Of a DNA stretch of 64,000 bases, positions 27,401 to 58,798 are shown piece by piece; positions within the stretch are counted from its first letter, which is position 1; the number at the start of each line of letters is the position of its first letter. Source of the DNA: Antedon mediterranea (lineage: Eukaryota > Echinodermata > Crinoidea > Comatulida > Antedonidae); NCBI RefSeq assembly GCF_964355755.1, contig NC_092670.1, positions 211,001 to 275,000 of the forward strand. Direction: 5' to 3'. The notes under the pieces are model-generated. The model saw only the letters and a list, made by a program, of their open reading frames with translations. It was not told where the DNA came from and did not search any database. The position numbers were made by a program, and so were the translations under genes.

Positions 27401-30400
27401 TCAATTCCTTCTCAACCTTTACTTATTTCTCCTTTTTTTTTAATTACTGCAAGACTACCTTTCTACTAATAATAAACCGTGTCATCTTGTATATATACCA
27501 GAATTCAAGGTTTTAGGTTCGAATCCAATCGCTTTCCAAAAACACGCAAAACAAGCTTTTCTGGATTTAGCAATTTAAACATGTTTTGGTTAAAAGTCAT
27601 TTTTTTCAAGGTTCATGTAATGATAATACTCCAATGAGGACATTGAATAGTGAAATCTATTTCTCTTGGGGAAAACATATGAGTCTGGGAAGGAAGTGTT
27701 GAGTACACACCCAGCACAACCCCCTATGGTTATAGTGCTGGCAGACAACATACACAAACTACATCAGCAATGATGTTTTATCTTATTTCAAATATTAACT
27801 AAATTTATTTACTATAAGAGAATAAACATATCAATGATTAAATACAGTAGTATTAGTTGCATTTAGGATACAAGTTTTAAAAGCAAGAATAATATAATTC
27901 TATAATTCTTTGTATTATGTATTTGGATTTAGGTAGAAAATACCATGACATTTATTAACAATCTATCCCAGATTTCACTTGACAAAATCAATACAAGTTC
28001 CTTTAAATGTGTTACAATGAAGTACATCTGGCAGTTCCTGACATATCTTATTTAACGTTGTAGTACATAGATATTAAGGGACAAATGATAGTCAGATTGT
28101 ATCCATTGTGAGAAAGTAAGTAGCATACCAAATGAGCAAAAAGTATGATTAATAACATCTGAAATCATGACAATTTGATATTCGTTTGCGAGGGAATAGG
28201 ATATTGACAAGATTCTGCTTCGAGGCACTAACGATAAAGTGAACAGAATCAAACTTTGTGAATATTCTTCATCGGTATAAGTTGCTGTCATCACTGGATT
28301 CTAAATGCTTGAAGGCTGATTAAAATTGATTTCAAAAACTAGGCATACCTCCTTAAGTTTTCTAATTGAAATAGATTTTTGGTAGGGTTGTCATTATGGG
28401 ATGGTTCATCTTAAAATCGATTGTGTAAAATTGGAGGGGAGTAAAGCGTTTTATTAAATTGTAGTTTTAACTTTTCTTTATAAATTTAATTAGTTTATAA
28501 CGCTCATAATGAATATCTGGTATGACTAAATTATATTACCACTTACTAGATATTTCTATTCTTTTGGGGATGACATTTTAGAGAGAATTGTAAACGTATT
28601 CACCCTTAAGTATCTATGATCCTTATCTAACCACTTTAAGTACCCGCCGGCTGAAGTTAAGAACGAATCTCACTGAGTGGTCGTAAGATGAAGATGCCAA
28701 TAACAACAGTATATGCATTAAGACTAGCACTTGATAGCAACAGATTGATAAAATATGTCCCCCCTGCAGGGGCAAGGTATGTCCCCCCTGCAGGGGCAAG
28801 GTATGTCCCCCCTGCAGGGGCAAGGTATGTCCCCCCTGCAGGGGCAAGGTATGTCCCCCCTGCAGGGGCAAGGTATGTCCCCCCTGCAGGGGTAAGGTAT
28901 GTCCCCCCTGCAGGGGCAAGGTCTCAGTTTGGGGGTTCTATATCTACCTTGAATTCCTTCTAAATCTTGATTTATTTGAAAGTCAAAATCAACAATTTAA
29001 AATGATGCTTGGTTAATGACTTACAGTAATTCAGCTAAAAAGAAAGTAGGGCGGAAGTAGCTGGTCATTTCTAGCCGTAAATTATTAAATTATGCTTGTA
29101 AAATGGTTGGCAACTAATACAAATTATACTTAATATTGAAGTATCCTGAAGAGTAATACTTTAATATCATATCAATCAATAGTGTGATAGATTTAGTTGC
29201 AAACAAATATTTAAGTTTAATAATTGGAACCTGGAATGTATGAGTTTTATTAAACTGTAATTGTTATAATATATTACATTATATTACAGCATAGAGAATT
29301 ATTTCTGCATTAATAACATTCATTAAAATATTGAGTACGCACCATAGTTTACTTCAAATTGCTTGTTTAATTAATTATGCTTCTTCATTTAAGCATATCT
29401 ATAAAATAAATGAAGATAACATCATCTTTTAATGGAAAGGGTGAAATTAAGGCATGTTGAGAGGCGATTCTCTAGCAATGAAGGTTATCATGCAGCTGGT
29501 TAGCCGATAAAATGACAGATCTGAAAATTGATTTGAACAGGCCTAGGGAGAAATGCACATAACTAGAAACTACTGGTTAATAATGAGGGTAGCCAAACGG
29601 TCAAATCAAAGATCACTATCTTATATTATCAATAAATACAGTCCCGTTTGAAACTGAAATTGTTCGCTACTACTTGTAGTGTGATACGATTTCAGAATAT
29701 TGTCTGCACCTGGCTCTCTCGCTTTAATGTAACCTTAGTAACAAGATTTTGATAGAAACTGGTTGCTAGAAGCGACCACTGTGTACCACACACAGACGGT
29801 GTGCAATTCTAGATGCAGAGATGTAATTTGTCAGATTAGCAGCACAGTGTACATGTTAGGAAGTTCTCGCATTGCAAGTGCGTCACATAATGCTTTTAAC
29901 GCGGCTAGGCCGTTTGATCAGAAGGCCATACACTACTTCAATTATTGTGGAATATACAGAACTATAAAACACATTTAAATTTAATAATTTGAAAGATACA
30001 TAAATTTAAGCCTGTGCTATTTGAAATTTGTAAGCATAGGTATTGTGTGTGAGTATTGAGTACTGAAACTAGTTTATCTTTAATTACTGCAGCATTAACT
30101 ATTTTACTGCAGTTCTATTTGAATTTGGCTAAAGAACTAAAGACTGCATTCCTAAGCTAAAGGTTCACAGTACATTACAGTAAATATTTCAAAATTCTGC
30201 CAATTTCTATTTAAACTATCATCTAATGAGATGTCAAAGAACTCTACAATATTTTCATTCATGGTTTGCTTGGTGCTCTACTATATTTTAGTGCATCCCT
30301 TACTATACTCATAAATAACTAATGCCACAGATATCTATGTTGTAGCCAAAGCCGCTTGCACAAGTGTTGTTAATGTTGGTGTAAAGGCCAAGCTGGTAAT

Positions 30401-44678: not shown

Positions 44679-45770
44679 TTACAGGCTTCCACCGCTTGGC
44701 TTGGGTTTTCTGATGAACACTTTCTTAAAACCCTCGCGTTCCTTGATTCGTTCCACGTACTCAACTAACACTGGATATTCCTGTAAAATGGCGCCACTGC
44801 GTATCACTGATGCCCACCACATATTATAACCAAGAACACAATCTGCTGTAGTAAACCTGAAACAGTAATTGTATAGTGATTTAGCTTTAACGGAAATAAG
44901 ACAAAGAGAAGTGTTTACTGTACTCTGTACTAATCATTTACCCGAGGCAGAGTAAACAGGAGGCTACAGTGTGTTCGATATCAACTTTTTTTTACCTGTC
45001 GCCACATATGTATTGTCTCTTTTCCAGAACAGTCGACAAGTAGGTAGCAATTTCTTTAAACTTGGCCATCATCTTGTCCACTAACACGTTGTCTCTCTGA
45101 TCCTCTGGAGTATGTGTTAACTGCATGTAGAGTGGTTCCAAAACTGGATCAATGGTGGCTATTGCATAACATATCCAGCTGTATAAATAATAAACACAAT
45201 GTTATACAGTACTTTAAATAATGTGAGATTTATTTTGGTTAGTCTTAACAATACGTACTTGTAATATTCTGCCCTTTGCAAATAATGTGGAGATAGGCCA
45301 CCAAATAGGTCAGCAAGATACATGCAGATTGCAGATGATTCAATGATTGTGATGTCATTATCAAGCTTTAAGGCTGGGATGGTTCCATGTGGATGTACAG
45401 TTTTCTTGTAATGTTCCATATCGGTCATATTCTCACCGTGAAGAGAAACCTTCTCCATTTGTATTTTGTTCTCAATCCCCAATTCTATTTTAATATTTCA
45501 ATAAAAAGATCAGACATAAAGATAAACTTAGTAATAGTATCTCCAATTATTACATTACACCATAAACCTTGATAATTTACCTTGAACAAGCCAGGCACAT
45601 CTAGACGAGCGAAATGGATAACTATGGTAAAGCACGATACCAGTAAGTTGTTTGGCATTCCTGTATCTCCTGTACAGTGCAAGGCTACCAAGTGCAAGTA
45701 CTGCGCCACCTCCAAGTGTTACACACAAACAAATAATTGCTGTTTTTCTAAATGGTGCATACCAACGCAT
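44679..45770 (-). CDS. Membrane-anchored glutathione S-transferase-like protein, complete
   Basis: Four exons: 45770-45581 (or from 45800 with an earlier ATG), 45484-45259, 45178-44996 and 44856-44679. The phases are 1, 2 and 2, giving 258 aa (268 with the upstream ATG). There is a membrane segment after a short N-terminus (LGGGAVLALGSLALYRRYR), then a thioredoxin-like GST N-domain (VLYHSYPFRSSRCAWLVQEL, PHGTIPALKLDN, ESSAICMYLADLFG) and an all-helical C-domain (LEKRQYICGDRFTTADCVLG). P-A in IPAL and the ESSAI motif bind glutathione in GSTs; the position usually held by catalytic Tyr, Ser or Cys is in the HSYPFRSSRC stretch. A single-pass anchor with the GST on one face is inferred. The start at 45770 aligns best with the alternative first exon. 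The gene converges on the FTCDNL1-like gene. Confidence 0.88.
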
Positions 45771-46243
45771 GCCATTATACACCATAGAATACCACCGCAT
45801 AACCGTTTATTAATTGGAATTTGGAAACAAGCATTAACTTTTAGTTTTATTTGTTTTACGCGCATGTGAGATGAGACTGTACTTTACAAAAGTTGTACTT
45901 GTTTGTACTGTACTTATTTTGAGAGGTCAATACTAATATAGAGGGCAGTATTTTTGTCATGCATGGACGCACACAAAACACAATAGTAAAAACTGAAATT
46001 CATAAACTTTTACTATTGTAATAATTTCCATTAATAAAAATAATAAATGTATAATTTATTTTGTCTTGATTTGAATATTCTAACACATATTGCACAATTT
46101 CTTTAAAACAACATACATGGTTAAACTGATTTTAATAACTCTAGGCCTACTCGCCTAGGCCCTAGCTTGAAAAAAAAATTAATAAACAGGGGAATTTGAC
46201 TTTGAGATGACTCGGCCTGTAGTGTACGTGTTGGCCTACGTAC

Positions 46244-48759: not shown

Positions 48760-51700
48760 TCAATCATCTTCTTCGCGTTGATAACGTGCAAAATTAAGAA
48801 AGACCTGCTCTAACGTTGTCTGACTCACAGAATAGTCTTCAATGTTGTATTGTAACTTGGCTTTCTCCATTGTACCAAACACAAACGCCCAACTTAAATT
48901 GGAATTGCATACATGGTAATGTACTAAGCCCACATGCTCATCTTTAAGTTTGCTACCTGTGGTCAGAAAAATAATAATATACTGTTTATATTGCTATTAA
49001 TTTCATGTAATAAAAGGTTATCACATATCAATTGCAATCAGTTTTCTTTATTTTATTTCAACAACATTTGAAGAGGGTGGTCCATCCAGCTTAAGCTGAA
49101 GTTTGACTCGCAATACAATCTTGTGCGTAACAAACTAACCTGGAAATTTTTCTTCTATAAACATCTTCAACTGATGTACATTTTGTCCATCATCATCTGG
49201 GGAAACCTTGGCTAGTAGTGTGTAGCCCTCTCCAAAGCGACTTTTTAAATGTTGGATGCTACCGAGGCATTTGAACTTGCCATTGACCATTATTGCAAGA
49301 CGGGTACACAAGGCTTCACACTCATCCATGCTATCAATAAGAAATTAAACAGTTCCATTTTTATTATATATTATTACTGATGCTTCATATTCTCACTTGT
49401 TCTTATTATTTTGTGTAACCATGTTAAAGGGCTTTTATTATATATTATTACTGATGCTTCATATTCTTGTTCTTATTATTTTTTGTTACCATGTTAAAGG
49501 GCCAACTGAGACAAGTTTACTTCTAGGTTGGTCCTCATTTTATGCGCTGTATTATTTGTATGGCATTTGATGAAATAAATGTTTGTTGAATTTTTATTTA
49601 GTTGTAATTAAATTACATAGTTTTTAAATAGACGATTTGGAGGAGGGGAGGGAGATGACATGTCCATGTCCAAGGATTGAAAGCTGAAATATAACCTATC
49701 TTTAATAACAACAACTTATTACCTGTGTGATGTTAGTATGATTGAGCGTCCAGATGCTCGAACCTTGCAGATTGAATCCCAGAGAAATCGACGTGTACCA
49801 GGATCCATACCAGTAGAGGGCTCATCAAGGAATACCACAGAAGGATCCCCTATCAAGGCGATCGCTGTACTCAACTTGCGTTTGTTGCCTCCACTGTAAT
49901 CAACAAAATATAAATTGGATTCAAAATGTGCGGTAATCTTCTAACCCTAACCTATTCTATATTTTATTATTATTTCCCAGTTTTGTCAATTTTGTTTTAA
50001 AAAGTTGGTTTTAGGATTAATGCCAAATTTTGTTTCAAAAAGTTTAGAATCTAACCTGTAAGCTTTAGTCTGTTTATCAGCATGTTCATCAAGGTTGAAT
50101 AGGTGTAATAGTTTGTTAACTTCTTTTGGTATCACAGACTCTGGTAAACCACGTAGTCTACCATACATGACAAGAGTTTCGCGACCCGTCATCTGATCAA
50201 TTAACGCATCAAATTGAGGGCAGTAACCAATATTCTGTTGCACCTAATACATTGATAAATAATACAATTGAAAATGTTAAAAGTATTTGTGGTTCCAACC
50301 TATTAACAGGGGATCCAGCATTATAGATTAGGGGGGAGGGGGCTAAATATTTCATAAATAATAAAAACGATCCATCAGGTTGCAGAAATATAAAAATAGT
50401 CATCATTTTATTTTAAAAGTTAAATTTTAAAGCCTGTTTAGCCTCCGCCTAAATCCGCACCTGAAATGCATCGAACAAATAGAGTTTAAATATATCTGAA
50501 TGACAAGAAAGGATTGACTACTTACTTGATTTATATTGTATTTGACACTAAACCGCTCAATGTAAGCATCACCATTTGAGATTGGTACATCACCTGTTAG
50601 CATGTTAAAAGTGGTGGACTTGCCTGCACCGTTAATACCAAGCAAACCAAAGCATTCTCCTAGTGGAACACCAAGGCACATATTGTCAACAGCTACCACA
50701 CTCTGCCCTCCTTTCTTGGGGTATACTTTTCGCAGCTCTTTTATTATGAGTGCATCAGTGTTCTGAAGGTCTGTGAGATCTGTATTTACGATACGTTGTT
50801 GTTCAGTCATTACATCTTCATCCTAAATTGTGTGAAAAATAAATCAAAAATACTTAATCAAAAATTTTCAAAAAGTGATAATAAAAATAGCTCTATTTTT
50901 TAGTGTGAAATGCACAAAGGATGTCCTCCACTGGTAAGTTAACAAATAACTTCATACCTCCACTACACTCTCTGTGTTTACTGCCTGATACATTTTTATA
51001 AGTTATCAATAACAAACAACTTCATACCTCCACTACACTCTCTGTGTTTACTGCCTGATACATTTTTATAAGTTATCAATAACAAACAACTTCATACCTC
51101 CACTACACTCTCTGTGTTTACTGCCTGATACATTTTTATAAGTTATCAATAACAAATAACTTCATACCTCCACTACACTCTCTGTGTTTACTGCCTGATA
51201 CATTTTTATAAGTTATCAATAACAACTTCATACCTCCACTACACTCTCTGTGTTTACTGCCTGATACATTTTTATAAGTTATCAATAACAAACAACTTCA
51301 TACCTCCACTACACTCTCTGTGTTTACTGCCTGATACATTTTTATAAGTTATCAATAACAAACAACTTCATACCTCCACTACACTCTCTGTGTTTACTGC
51401 CTGATACATTTTTATAAGTTATCAATAACAAACAACTTCATACCTCCACTACACTCTCTGTGTTTACTGCCTGATACATTTTTATAAGTTATCAATAACA
51501 AACAACTTCATACCTCCACTACACTCTCTGTGTTTACTGCCTGATACATTTTTATAAGTTATCAATAACAAATAACTTCATACCTCCACTACACTCTCTG
51601 TGTTTACTGCCTGATACATTTTTATAAGTTATCAATAACAAACAACTTCATACCTCCACTACACTCTCTATGTTTACTGCCTGATACATTTTCATAAGTT

Positions 51701-54700
51701 ATCAATAACAAACAACTTCATACCTCCACTACACTCTCTGTGTTTACTGCCTGATACATTTTTAACTTTTTACTTTTTCCTGGAAACAACATATACCACA
51801 ACTTTCTGAAAACACCAGCTTCTATAACCAAGACCCAGACAAAGTACAGAAAACCAGTGACACCTAAAAACACGAGGTCCCGGCCAATACCAGGCGTCGC
51901 CCATCCCAAGTAGTTTTCGTTAACACTCAAATCAGGAGTGGCTATACAAGAAAAAAAATGCATTCAAATATTATTTATTTACATTTGTCAGCAATTTAAA
52001 GTATTTCTTGGGTAGACTATTTTCAGTACTGTGTATCACTATTAAGTGATATGGATAAAAACTGAAGGGGAAACATGCAACAAATAATTAACAACTCTAA
52101 TACTTACCTTGGCAAATTATACGAGCTTCAGGACTTGAATTGCAAATTTTTAAATACTGATAGTTAATGTAGATGTCGTTCATAGCCTTTGCAAGACAGA
52201 ATGATGGAGAGAATAGAAAGATCCAATGTAGAGCATTTCCCACTTTCATTAGGTTCAATTCTGGCATCTCAAGAATTTCCACGGCAAGGAACGCTGTTGT
52301 CCCAAAAAGAATATTGAAGATTGCCATACGTACAAAACCAGCAGACGGTGATTTAAACAAGAACGAGAAGAGGTACATAAGCGGTATGATGGCCCATCCA
52401 TAAAGGAACAAGAGTAGAAAGACGTACCCAAGTCTGCCATCGTCTGTGTAGGCTTTAACGTCAAAGGCAATGAAGACAAATATGATCAGTATGCTTGTTA
52501 TTGTGTAGTTTATGAGATCCCACAAGAAAGTTGACAGCCAGAAATTTGTGAGGTGAACACCACTGACAAACTGTATATGTTTAGCCTTCGTTGCTCTCTC
52601 TTTAATAAGAAACACAACGAATGTACTTGCCAGAATAGACATTCCAAATACCATGTCAAATGCAATTACAAACCCAGTTGTGAATCCATTGTTTATCTCG
52701 TCATCGGCTTTCTCAGACACAGAGCGTGGTAGCGGGTAGTTAAATGTAGTTATGGAGTACGAAGTATTCAAGGAGGCTTTAAGGAGAGCGTTGGTGTACG
52801 CATTAAGAGCGATTCCCGGTGTATGCCACGGTTGGTTGTTGAAGAATGCAGTTCCGTCTAAATAACTGTTTTTTGTGTTCTTTTTAAACACAGCTGCTAT
52901 TAGATATCTTTCATTAAATGTCACCGTGTCCTTAGAGCTTATATTAACAATTGCATCTATCATATTACATGATTGGTGGTCTTTGTTCAAATTAATTCCC
53001 TTCGTCATTGTGTTGTCAAACTGTTCAGCAAAAGCATTGGTATATCGACTATACTGTGCTGTATGGTTGTCATGGCAGTAGAGTACCTTGTTTTCTCCGT
53101 AAGAATCTGGCTTAAGCTTCAAAGCTGGAAGATCCGATGGAGGGGGGAATGAGTTGACTGCTAACAGTGCAAACATTGTGTACAACAGTGGAATTAAAAT
53201 CTGAGACAATGTTACAAGCAAATTGCGTCTGGTATGAATCACTCTTTTTACAAACATGCCATAAAATTGTTGGGCATATAAGCGAATTCCAAAATTTCGT
53301 AATCCAAACAAAGCAAAACCTGTTAAGATAGAAATCAAGATAACGTCAAGTTGAGGGAGAATATCCCGCATTAGTACAGTAATTTAAGTTGAGGGCGAAT
53401 ATCCCGCATTTGTACAGTAATTTAAGTTGAGGGCGAATATCCCGCATTTGTACAGTAATTTATGTTATCAGCACGTGCTTCAGTAGACTACTAGACCTAC
53501 CTATTTCAGGGTCGTGTGTAGACAATAGAGGAGTTGTTTCATCGTGTGTAGACAATAGAGGAGTTGTTTCATCGTGTGTAGACAATAGAGGAGTTGTTTC
53601 ATCGTGTGTGGACTGGACTTTTGGCTGGTCAATGCTCAAACTCTCAACATCACTAAGAGAGCTTCCATTGCTACGGTAACCACTGCTTTCATCATTGTCA
53701 GGGCAATGAGATTGGTTTCCAACTCTAGATATAGAAGAAAATGCATTATTGTATTAAATATGTGTATACTTTGTACTGTCTACACTTCTGCTTTTTCCAT
53801 TCAACCTCAAGATATCATGGACAAATTCTTTCATCTTTGTTTAAAATATTTGGAAAATCAGATTTCAGATTTTCAGAATAGCCCAAACCTTAGGAGCTTA
53901 TTTCCATGGGGTTCTTTAAACTAAACTCACTTTAAAAACACTTCTTCCATTGTGGTGACTGAAACTCCATAGCTTCTAATGCCAAGGTCATTACTTCTCT
54001 TCTCCATGTTGTTAAAAAGCCCTTCAAACTGTGCAACTTCCTCATGAGGCAAAATAAATGTTAACTCGTTGCCAATGTTATTCTCTATTTCGGAATTCTT
54101 GATTGTTGAATAGATCATATCTTTGATCTCTGCCACTTTACAATTCTCTCCTTTTGAAATTGTCATGTGATACCCAACACCTGCAAATACAAGATCTGAT
54201 TATTTAATTCTTTTCAGATAAATTATTATTGGTTTTGCCAAACACTTGAGTTTTGCAGTACCAATTTACTGACTGATACTCGCCTCCTTGGGATAAAATC
54301 TAACAATAGGCATTAAGCACAAGCTTGTTTGCTCCAGCTGAGAATAGCTTGTAATTTTGTAATTCTGTAAAATTTACATTTGATTTGTCAAACCGGCTTA
54401 ATTAAATAAACAACAACCCAAAATTACAAACCATATCTATTTTTTAGAAACAATGACGATCCACAACACTGTAGTTCTCCTTCAGCCATAATAGCTATAC
54501 GATCGCCAAGTAGATCCGCTTCATCCATGTGATGAGTGGTCAGTAAAATGGTACGACCAGCACGATGTCTTTGAAGAATATCCCAAGTAAAGCGTCGTGC
54601 TGCTGGATCCATTCCAGATGTTGGCTCATCTAACATGATTATCTACAAATATAATTTATTGTACACTTTGTCAAAGTATTCGCTATCTGCGGTTGGCTGA

Positions 54701-57700
54701 CTAAGTGTGTACTTAACTTGTACTAACTCACCTTGGAGTCTGCAATAAGTGCAATACCAACTGATAACTTGCGTTTCATACCACCAGATAAAGACTTAGA
54801 ACGAACATGCCGTTTATCTTCCAATGCAAGTGATGATATGTACTTATCTACTTCAGATTTGACCATTTTTTTTGGACAATTCTTTAACTGTTTAAAAAAG
54901 AAGAGACAAAATTTGTTAACCAATTCATAAAGATTGTGGTTCAGATCATTGGATCGCACAAAATAACAGTTTTTGAGATTTTAAAGATTGAATATATAAG
55001 CAATGAAAATTTAATATTAACCTTTGCAAAAAAATACAAATGCTCCTCTACAGTAAGATCATCAAACAGTACGTCATGTTGTGGACATAATCCAAGACTG
55101 GATCGCACACCATCAATATCCTTACGGATGTCATATCCATTAACAATGGCCGTGCCCTCAGACGGTGGGAAGAGGCCAGTTAGCATGGACATAGTGGTCG
55201 TCTTGCCGGCACCGTTGTGACCCAGTAGAGCTGTAATCTGACCCTCAAAAATATTCAGTGAGATCTCATTCACTGCCACTTTGGATCGATTAAAAACCTA
55301 AAATGTAAATTTAATATTACTTTATTATTTCTCTTCAAATGTAATGAGCATTTCTTAAAATGAGGATGTTTTAGTAGTTTAACATTTTATCTTTTAAACT
55401 TACTTTCTTCAATTTTCTAATCTGTATTCCAGCAATTTGACCCTCAGGATCTTTTTCAAAGTATTTAGAATCTCTGTCATCTTCAAAATCTGGCTCCTGA
55501 CTTTCAATCACTTTGGTGCCAAACCAGTAGGATTTCTGTAAGAAACAAATACATAACATTTGGAGAATATTTCTGAGGAAATGTTACATAAACTCAGAGA
55601 AATTTAATAGGAGGATACCAAAACCAAACGAGAAAGAATGGAATTTCTGCTAAACTGAATGTTTAATTTAATTAGAATGGTTTTAACTTTGCATTTGTAA
55701 ACACCTTTCAACTTTTGTATTGTTTTAGTTACGTTCTTTTTACTCCTTTTAATTGTTTTTTTGTTGTAAATAGTATTGTATACTGAAACAGCCTCCTTGT
55801 TAAAAACACTAGTAATCAAGTTTTCTGTTTTTTACTATTATTATTTTTTGTGAAAATTCTAAAAACTGCTGGCATCATTTTATATGTAGCTTGTGTACAT
55901 ACCATTACTGGAAAGTACCATTTCCTTGGAATTCCAAATTCTCCTGGGAATACTGCCTCAACATACCATGTTATAATACCATAAAGTATTGCATCAACCA
56001 CTAGCATCACTAACACATCGAGAAAAGTGAAGTTGTCATCGGATGAGATTGGTCGAGAGATATTGCTCCATTGCACTCCTTCACCTAAATACAATAAGAT
56101 GTATTTCATTTGTTTGCACAGCAGTAGATGCATGCCTTTTGATCAATTACAGGGCCGTAGTCACCAGTACGTTTGGTAAGGTTTCAACCTGACCACTTTT
56201 TCACAGAGGCCTTTCATAAACCAGTGGCTTGAACAGAGATTGTTCCCTTTTCTTCCAAAAACACACCACTAAATCACTGACTTTAGTATTTAAAAAGTAA
56301 CTTCCCCACTATGCTTAGACACATTCAACTTATTTTTAACTGATGTTTCCATGTCCTGAAAAGACTTAATAGTGATAAAGATAACATACCTGTACCCTCA
56401 AACAACCCTATAATAAAAGCTCCAAATGCCATGGCAGTATTAGACAAAAGACAAGCTCCAAACTTTGCTGATCTACTCAGTGTACTATACTGATTAATTA
56501 AGAACATATAAGGTATGTATGAAAAAAACCATACAACTCCGGCTACTACCGCTGCTGTGTTAGCTAGAAAACAAAAATACATTATCAATGCAAAATTAAA
56601 TGTATACATACAATGCATGTCATAGAAACAAGACATTAGGTGATCAGCTGCATAGCTTGCTTGCTGATGGAGGTGACATTTACAGAACAGTAGGTTTATT
56701 GAGACAAACAATCTTATATTCTACTAGTTATTAATATTGCTATACAAATTAAAAATTACCTTTTGAGAAGAAAACACTAACGGTGAAGCAAAGACTGACA
56801 GTCGACAACGAGAAGCAAAGGAAGAAGACAAAAATGACTGTAGGGTCACTGTTACTGATAACTGACCCCTTGTCTCCCACTTTGACCCAGTACAGTAAGG
56901 TCATAAAGAAGGTACTGATAGCAAGGAAGGCAAAGCACTTGGTGAACCATGCCAACCAATGCAACCAGTTGTTTAAACCCATCATTTTCATGGACTCCTG
57001 TAGAAAAAAATAAAAAACAAAGAGTCCCACTCTATTATATACTGTATAACTTTGTAATGTGTTCCCCATTTCATTATTTTCTGATTCACCTTATTCATGA
57101 CTATTTATAAACTGAATAGAAAAGCATCAAAAGCCTATAGAGCACAAAATGAGAACCATGCAATATTATGATATCTTACCTTCAATTTTTTCTCTTTTTC
57201 CTGGACAATACTCCTAGTAATGTCCAAGGCATTCAATATGTAACTGATTAGCAAGAGTATTGGCAGTTGCGACTGAATGACAAGGATAAAGAGATCGTCA
57301 TTGTACGGTGGATAGGGGAACCTCTGCATGTTGATTGTGATGTTTTTAATTTCAACCTTACTTTCTTTTAGAATCGCTATATCAACTGCATTCTGTAGTG
57401 AAAGAAATCCTTCTCGCCAATAACCTATTAAGAATAGATTAATATTAAAAGCAGAAAGGGAATGTTTCACACCACGTTTGTTTTTGTTTCTCATCATCCA
57501 GCGAATATCATAGGGAAAAAATCAGTACTGTATTATTATTATTATTGATTCTTTATACTAGGTAGGTAGTCTCTTTAGTCAAAGACTGTTCTCCCAGAGG
57601 GTCCAGTATATAGTATAGTACTATGATGAGTTTGTGACAGTGGCTGTGTGTGAACTAGTACATCAGGGTAACGCCTTACTCGTCTTGAAAGATGTACTAG

Positions 57701-58798
57701 TCCTGAACTAGATGTGTACACTGGACCTATGGTTTATAGTCCTTATCTGAAAGACTCGTTCTACCACCAGAACGATGGAGCGAGTGAGCCTCGAACCCTT
57801 GCCGATGTTATGGCTACGTATGACGGTCTACTGTCTTAACCGCTTGGCCACTAACTGGCACTCACTGTATTGTTTTATTTCAACAAATTCAAACCCACAA
57901 TTCTTACCTGGTTCACCTCCACGTGAGTGATTAATTTCTCTTGGTCCTGGCAGCTGAACTAGTGGAACCAATTCATTTGTTTTCCATCTGCTCTCATTAC
58001 TCTTTCCACCAATTTCATCAGCTATAGGCACGTTTACTTGGCTGGCTTTTAAACGGATACTATACGTGATGTTTGTGGGAAATGCATTTTGTTTCTCAAA
58101 GTTGTCAGCAAATACAATGCCACCAAGGAAACTGGAATTCGCTTCAATAATTCTTTTAGCCGCATATTTCAGAAGCTCGTCTTCAGTATCAAACCCAGTA
58201 ACTAATGTTTAAAATAATAAATACAAAATGTATATTAAAAAAGCTGGTTTATACAATTAGAACATAACTTATTCTGGTGAATTTTGAATTTCATTTTAGT
58301 AAATTAAGCTTGTTAAAACAATAGTGGAAAAGAGTTGCTTGTGAACATTTTTATTTTTGATAAATGAGAAAAGTAATTAAATCAACGAACAATATCTACA
58401 AATTGATCTGTTGGAATTAAATCTAAACAAAGCAACTTACTTTTAGATATTGATATATGACTTTCATAATGTAAACTTCCCTTAACATCTTCCATAACTT
58501 TCTCAAGGATTTCATTCTTTGGCGAGTATGCTATCTCCCATTTAAATGGCTTGTATAAAGGAAATAATGGCGATGGCCTGATTGGTGTCAAACTATTAGG
58601 AAATCGCTTTACGGAAAAGTCTTCATAAATTGTCGCATTAGGATAAATTTTAAATGCGACTCTTGTACGTATTGCAATCAGGATCACAGCAAACACAACA
58701 GGCATGGCAATCTCAATTATCGTCCAGATTTTTCTTCGCTTTTGGAGAACATAATTTTTCCACAGAAGCAACAAAAATTGATTGGACCTTCGACCCAT
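48760..58798 (-). CDS. ABCA3: ABCA-family lipid transporter, ABCA3-like, complete (19 coding exons)
   Basis: Full-size ABC transporter; family members move phospholipids across lysosome-related or plasma membranes. Exons: 58798-58441, 58201-57908, 57424-57180, 56997-56760, 56563-56390, 56084-55903, 55535-55404, 55297-55022, 54887-54732, 54642-54432, 54180-53931, 53724-53501, 53319-52108, 51941-51724, 50822-50526, 50243-50056, 49893-49723, 49330-49140, 48956-48760. Phases agree throughout: 1,737 aa, close to human ABCA3. N-terminal LLLLWKNY contains the LxxKN targeting pattern of ABCA3. NBD1: Walker [10 protein letters not shown] (about 567), signature LSGGMKRK (666), Walker [11 protein letters not shown] (686). 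NBD2: GINGAGKST (1452), SGGNKRKLS (1552), [10 protein letters not shown] (1571). The linker exon 53724-53501 is Ser/Asp-rich and carries a tandem dileucine repeat. All nucleotide-binding motifs are intact. A non-coding 5' exon is likely, as an acceptor sits at 58821. Confidence 0.96.
49335..49500. repeat. Direct duplication in ABCA intron 17
   Basis: Two diverged copies of a segment of about 67 bp beginning ATTATTACTGATGCTTCATA and ending CCATGTTAAAGGGC. Confidence 0.85.
50945..51776 (-). repeat. 70-bp tandem array derived from the end of ABCA exon 14 and its splice donor
   Basis: Twelve copies (TTCATACCTCCACTACACTC starting at 50951, 51021, 51091, 51161, 51227, 51297, 51367, 51437, 51507, 51577, 51647, 51717). 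The last, at 51717, is the genuine exon end, encoding [12 protein letters not shown] followed by donor GTATGAAG. The other eleven lie in intron 14 and repeat the exon end, the donor and about 20 bp of intron. One unit is 66 bp. Confidence 0.95.
52108..53319 (-). CDS. ABCA3: ABCA exon 13: second transmembrane domain and its large exocytoplasmic loop
   Basis: 1,212-bp exon, the largest of the gene, covering residues about 914-1317. It begins [20 protein letters not shown], runs through the first helix of TMD2 ([20 protein letters not shown]), a large loop with Asn-X-Ser/Thr sites, and several further helices ([40 protein letters not shown]). An upstream in-frame ATG at 53371 is intron sequence; the acceptor TTAACAG precedes 53319. 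Confidence 0.93.
53348..53461. repeat. Minisatellite, 38-bp unit, 3 copies, ABCA intron 12
   Basis: Units beginning AAGTTGAGGGCGAATATCCC at 53348, 53386 and 53424, between exons 12 and 13. It lies within 30 bp of the exon 13 acceptor. Confidence 0.92.
53513..53602 (-). repeat. In-frame coding minisatellite, 30-bp unit, 3 copies (ABCA exon 12)
   Basis: Three identical 30-bp units (53513, 53543, 53573) encode [10 protein letters not shown] three times, at about residues 880-909 of the transporter, in the cytoplasmic linker between NBD1 and TMD2. Each copy contains ETTPLL, a match to the acidic dileucine consensus [DE]xxxL[LI]. Confidence 0.93.
57527..57860 (-). mobile_element. tRNA-derived SINE in ABCA intron 2
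   Basis: On the minus strand an A box (TGGCCAAGCGGT, 57850-57839) and a B box (GGTTCGAGGC, 57797-57788) are spaced as in Leu/Ser-type tRNAs. The 5' region GTTAGTGGCCAAGCGG looks tRNA-like, and a tRNA-unrelated body of about 230 bp ends in an AATAATAATAAT tail. It is not a functional tRNA, since no acceptor stem closes. It is in sense orientation with the host gene. Confidence 0.8.

Follow-up and report, generated by a model that had tools for sequence, protein, structure and literature searches.

It has been reported that signals of the form [DE]xxxL[LI] are recognised by the adaptor complexes AP-1, AP-2 and AP-3 (PMC5297682). For instance, the DERAPLI signal of LIMP-2 is described as acting in sorting via AP-1 and AP-3 (PMC5297682), and the signals of mucolipin are given as ETERLL and EEHSLL (PMC5297682, PMC2730553). 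In GLUT8, a single EXXXLL is reported to be enough for endolysosomal sorting, which takes place via AP-1 and AP-2 and not via AP-3 (PMC2730553); a paper on VGLUT allows acidic residues at −4 or −5 (PMC4198130). In the ABCA transporters, xLxxKN is described as a general feature (PMC4234516), and the linker of ABCA1 is reported to contain a PEST region with the PKC-alpha sites T1286 and T1305 (PMC3636258), the function of this region being in calpain-mediated degradation (PMC6157400, PMC3636258). Among the literature matches listed, titles and abstract openings describe no dileucine signal in an ABCA linker, and the titles and abstracts of the matches on ABCA3 do not name a dileucine.

The window analysed here is a stretch of 64,000 nucleotides of DNA from the crinoid Antedon mediterranea. 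On its minus strand lies an ABCA3-like coding region of 19 exons and 1,737 aa (48760–58798, stop codon counted), modelled by splicing and homology with 18 GT-AG introns and no internal stops. The splice sites were picked by eye to hold the frame, so that the independent evidence comes from the homology and not from the open frame by itself. Residues 6–1732 of the model align with ABCA3 (PDB 7w01) at 1,654 bits, above ABCA1 (1,169 bits), ABCA4 (1,101 bits) and ABCA7 (1,036 bits), and by this score, taken among the ABCA members found in the PDB (entries, 7w01 included, that we assume to be human), the gene is an ABCA3-like member of the ABCA subfamily, as the original prediction had proposed. 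Strings that we take to be Walker A (residues 567 and 1452), signature (666 and 1552) and Walker B (686 and 1571) mark two NBDs. Coding exon 1 (58441–58798, minus strand) encodes an N-terminal LLLLWKN of the xLxxKN pattern; the claim that LxxKN is kept therefore stands, while its use as an ABCA3-specific sign does not, since the pattern is ABCA-wide (PMC4234516) and for this reason says little about whether the protein has an ABCA3-type destination.

The three exons around the linker, all on the minus strand, were read as follows. Coding exon 11 (53931–54180) carries the C-terminal R1 regulatory region and ends in TTMEEVFL, with a score of 21.7 bits against R1_ABCA1 (PF23321), under the Pfam cut-off of 27; coding exon 12 (53501–53724, 224 nt) carries most of the hydrophilic linker, is entered in phase 2 and left in phase 1, has good splice sites (acceptor TTCTATATCTAG, donor GTAGGT) and alone matches no Pfam family at E up to 0.1; and coding exon 13 (52108–53319, 1,212 nt) carries the linker end and most of TMD2 with the extracellular domain. 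The array lies in exon 12, within the hydrophilic stretch that joins NBD1/R1 (R1 being in exon 11) to TMD2 (exon 13). Homology places this linker on the cytosolic side, where it had been predicted to be.

The array consists of three identical 30-bp copies, which on the minus strand are in frame in the model and give a 10-residue unit three times over (residues 880–909). The copy at 53573–53602 encodes residues 880–889, that at 53543–53572 residues 890–899, and that at 53513–53542, the C-terminal-most, residues 900–909 up to codon phase. TRF reports the array as a single row at 53512–53613 with 3.4 copies and 98% matches, and with head-to-tail copies of a unit of 10–100 bp it is a minisatellite. 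When the 354-Mb genome was searched for the 30-mer with up to three mismatches, the places listed were only the three window copies. Each unit contains ETTPLL, an exact match to [DE]xxxL[LI], and extends it to DETTPLL, which fits the stricter pattern [DE][DE]xxPL[LI] and resembles DERAPLI of LIMP-2 as given in PMC5297682; the closest LL of the array lies 24 residues ahead of the QQF leading into TMD2. The observation made in the original prediction, namely a 30-bp unit repeated three times at 53513–53602 in exon 12, the 12th coding exon, in frame and with ETTPLL in every unit, is thus confirmed. Its interpretation is supported in part: the gene identity, exon number, reading frame, cytosolic side (by homology) and exact acidic-dileucine consensus hold, while a variable repeat number, a tuning of adaptor binding by three copies and residence in a lysosome-related organelle remain conjecture.

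The two forms of the motif differ in how unusual they are. The loose pattern [DE]xxxL[LI] is not unusual: it appears in 10.8% of shuffles of the window linker with one copy (P = 0.108), occurs 1.085 times per 1,000 residues in six-frame ORFs, and is found at four further places in the same protein (725, 1446, 1530 and 1643), in or beside the NBDs. The strict pattern is unusual, with a shuffle P of 0.0006 and four matches in 94,040 six-frame residues (stop-to-stop ORFs of at least 30 aa in the window and in seven other loci that were fetched), these being the three window copies and DDDMPLI of the ABCA linker on C4; the strict pattern was framed after the sequence had been seen.

Eight ABCA loci, counting the window gene, were found in the genome, a list that may be incomplete. 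The loose motif is present in the linkers of three of them, namely the window gene, C4 (DDMPLI) and C6 (DQQNLL), and is absent from the other five (the other C1 gene, two C8 genes, C10 and C11). Neither of the two PDB linkers, those of ABCA1 and ABCA3, contains it (0 of 2). The probability of at least three in eight is 0.049 with the gene that prompted the question counted; it is 0.18 for at least two in seven without that gene and 0.27 for the seven other genes together with ABCA1 and ABCA3, and on the latter two values an enrichment of the loose pattern in ABCA linkers was rejected. The strict motif is found in two of the eight genome linkers (window and C4), a count that speaks against the explanation preferred below, and has no match in the other six or in ABCA1 and ABCA3 of the PDB. 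For the nine other linkers (seven of the genome plus ABCA1 and ABCA3), a strict match in at least one has a shuffle P of 0.0059. None of these nine contains tandem dileucine copies, and the triplication is therefore particular to the window gene among the linkers read; in C11 the exon joins are the least certain and an intervening exon is possible. The best-scoring paralogue by TMD2, the other C1 gene (41% identity), has TESSLI in its linker, with an acid at −3 only.

Some L[LI] is present in all ten linkers (eight of the genome, ABCA1 and ABCA3). In pairwise HMMER rows, in which the linker alignments are weak, the third copy DETTPLL lies over DGIGALI of ABCA3, and the third copy also lies over RETDLLSGMD of ABCA1. 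These rows give a hint that an L[LI] at the array position may be old in ABCA linkers. A single ancestrally conserved dileucine is not claimed: L[LI] is confined to the final 20 residues before TMD2 in three of the eight genome linkers, and DQQNLL of C6 is out of register with the DLL of ABCA1. In the C4 linker exon (L010:8274–8480), a Ser run and acids surround DDDMPLI, with a strong PEST-like score of 19.9. The C8 loci L012 and L013 (R1 matches at 28.329 and 28.353 Mb) are two very similar ABCA genes separated by about 24 kb, and their linkers are slightly unlike each other.

The 30-bp array is more than chance would give, but as a repeat it is not unusual. The window contains 32 arrays of period ≥10, which make up 10.9% of the sequence at 5 per 10 kb; the seven other fetched stretches, which all come from ABCA regions and so do not sample the genome at random, range from 0 to 5.6 per 10 kb. 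Because minisatellites are so frequent in the window, the presence of one in a coding linker that is probably disordered needs no selective cause. An inference of selection from the identity of the copies was also rejected, as 100% matches are also seen in 10 of the window's 42 TRF rows, and none of these 10 lies in the ABCA3-like gene. Survival in coding sequence would be expected of a unit whose length is divisible by three in an unstructured linker. The bulk of intron 12 (53320–53500) is itself a tandem array of a 38-bp unit in 3.1 copies (53348–53466), which adjoins the coding array. Elsewhere in the gene, a 70-bp array of 11.8 copies at 50940–51764 starts inside the end of ABCA exon 14 (end 51724) and copies the exon end together with the 5′ splice site, GTAGTGGAG/GTATGA, 12 times in tandem. 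Outside the gene, a 24-bp array of seven copies at 28754–28922 lies in putative ORFs of both strands and repeats YVPPAGAR in one frame, and exon-like ORFs at 44682–45806 (VLYHSYPFRSSRCAW) resemble by eye what we take to be a glutathione S-transferase-type gene.

The window linker is probably disordered. By charge-hydropathy it is classed as disordered, as are the seven other genome linkers (C8b included) and the ABCA1 linker; the ABCA3 linker (7w01) is classed as not disordered, which counts against the preferred explanation. AlphaFold2 run on exon 12 alone as one sequence, which is weak evidence, gave a pLDDT of 58.6 and no structure. With one copy the window linker would be 73 residues long, between ABCA3 (70) and ABCA1 (79), and the eight genome linkers range from 60 to 108 residues and are widely unlike in sequence.

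The reading we favour, with a probability of about 0.45, is that the linker holds one plausible acidic-dileucine sorting signal, and that an in-frame minisatellite expansion, nearly neutral in its effect, recently turned it into three copies. An ABCA3-type lipid transporter would carry the LIMP-2-like DETTPLL in its NBD1/R1–TMD2 linker, and one copy would most likely be a sorting signal bound by the sigma-containing hemicomplexes of AP-1, AP-2 or AP-3; exons of the sigma family gave 12 matches in the genome. This predicted contact may help to carry the transporter to endolysosomal membranes, its putative destination. One copy should be enough for such a function, because a single EXXXLL suffices in GLUT8. 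The genome's vigorous minisatellite growth may then have triplicated the 30-bp unit, which would be tolerated since a unit of 30 bp keeps the frame and the linker is probably unstructured, and the extra copies would probably be redundant or bring a modest gain in avidity. The repeat habit of the genome explains three copies without selection, and the triplication was probably nearly neutral.

A reading with a real though lesser claim, doubtful on balance, is that chance produced a dileucine-like string within an acidic linker, that neutral minisatellite growth tripled it, and that it has no role in sorting. The commonness of the loose pattern in shuffles and in six-frame ORFs, its four other copies in the protein and the density of arrays in the window all agree with it, as do the genome linkers, most of which lack the motif (five of eight in the loose form, six of eight in the strict form). 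What it explains less well is that the strict form, which asks for acids at −5 and −4 together with Pro at −1, is seldom met and yet recurs in the ABCA linker on C4. The same recurrence could be given a far bolder meaning, which we consider distinctly unlikely: the R1–TMD2 linker of ABCA proteins would be an evolvable hub of trafficking in which some family members (window and C4) have acquired or retained LIMP-2-type acidic dileucines, in the stretch where ABCA1 has its PEST and PKC sites, and in this species minisatellite slippage would set the number of signals as a heritable dial between surface and lysosome.

An unlikely alternative makes the LL incidental and takes the Ser/Thr/acid-rich repeat as an element of phosphorylation or stability like the ABCA1 PEST, whose kinase sites (STHD, THDE) would govern proteolysis or activity. 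Every unit contains [ST]xx[DE], which we assume to be a CK2-like pattern, and the linker is the same one in which ABCA1 has its PEST and the PKC-alpha sites T1286 and T1305 (PMC3636258). Against this, His interrupts the repeat every ten residues and leaves no PEST candidate. In what we take to be the PEST-score formula, applied to the linkers, the window linker also scores a weak 1.5, where ABCA1 reaches 17.6 and the C4 gene 19.9, and the repeat was rejected as a PEST on this score. That the array merely adds 20 residues to the linker, their sequence being immaterial, is very improbable; the wide variation of the eight ABCA linkers in length and sequence suits such a spacer, but a rare strict motif in two linkers is not what a pure spacer predicts. 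It is scarcely credible that the model splices exon 12 wrongly or that the copy number is an assembly error. Tandem arrays are a known hazard of assembly, and the model was drawn from genome sequence alone with splice sites chosen by eye; a 90-bp array is nevertheless within the reach of ordinary reads, and with the chosen sites exons 11 and 13 are in frame only through exon 12. Skipping of this exon, a concern raised in the original prediction, was checked in the model only, where its omission breaks the frame and translation ends at a stop after residue 907.

Should the copies bind adaptors and differ in number between individuals, they would form a natural dose series of one signal in one transporter, which would test whether dileucine valency sets lysosomal targeting, and a trafficking signal would be placed in an ABCA linker at the site of the regulatory PEST of ABCA1. 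If they do not, the locus would be a clean case in which ordinary repeat growth has multiplied a short motif of attractive appearance.

Among known systems, ABCA3 (7w01) has the same domain order as the window protein and is its best-scoring solved relative over the whole length; its linker is free of repeats and reads SDGIGALIEEE, where −5 is acidic and −4 is not, and a looser reading would let it pass, because the VGLUT paper allows an acid at either position (PMC4198130). The PEST linker of ABCA1 occupies the same place between R1 and TMD2 and is likewise acidic and predicted to be disordered. In the numbering of 7tbz, T is found at 1286 and 1305, and L1307–L1308 follow directly after T1305 and D1306; R at −4 of this LL puts it outside [DE]xxxL[LI], whereas the window protein has an acid there. 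Because ABCA1 has a PEST region and PKC-alpha sites in it, the R1–TMD2 linker is by analogy a credible regulatory site, though the LL of ABCA1 is without an acid at −4. The DERAPLI of LIMP-2 (PMC5297682) agrees with DETTPLL at −5 (D), −4 (E), −1 (P) and 0 (L) and fits the strict pattern, its R at −3 falling on a position left free. In the LIMP-2, mucolipin and GLUT8 examples as described in these sources, there are one or two non-identical signals, usually near the end of the protein, whereas the window protein has three identical candidate signals in tandem in the linker that connects the two halves of an ABC transporter. In its unit length, a multiple of three, in its identical copies and in its probably disordered setting, the array is like coding VNTRs. 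The locus combines a candidate signal of a known kind with a protein that is likewise of a known kind; the tandem form is unusual, and its origin is probably ordinary.
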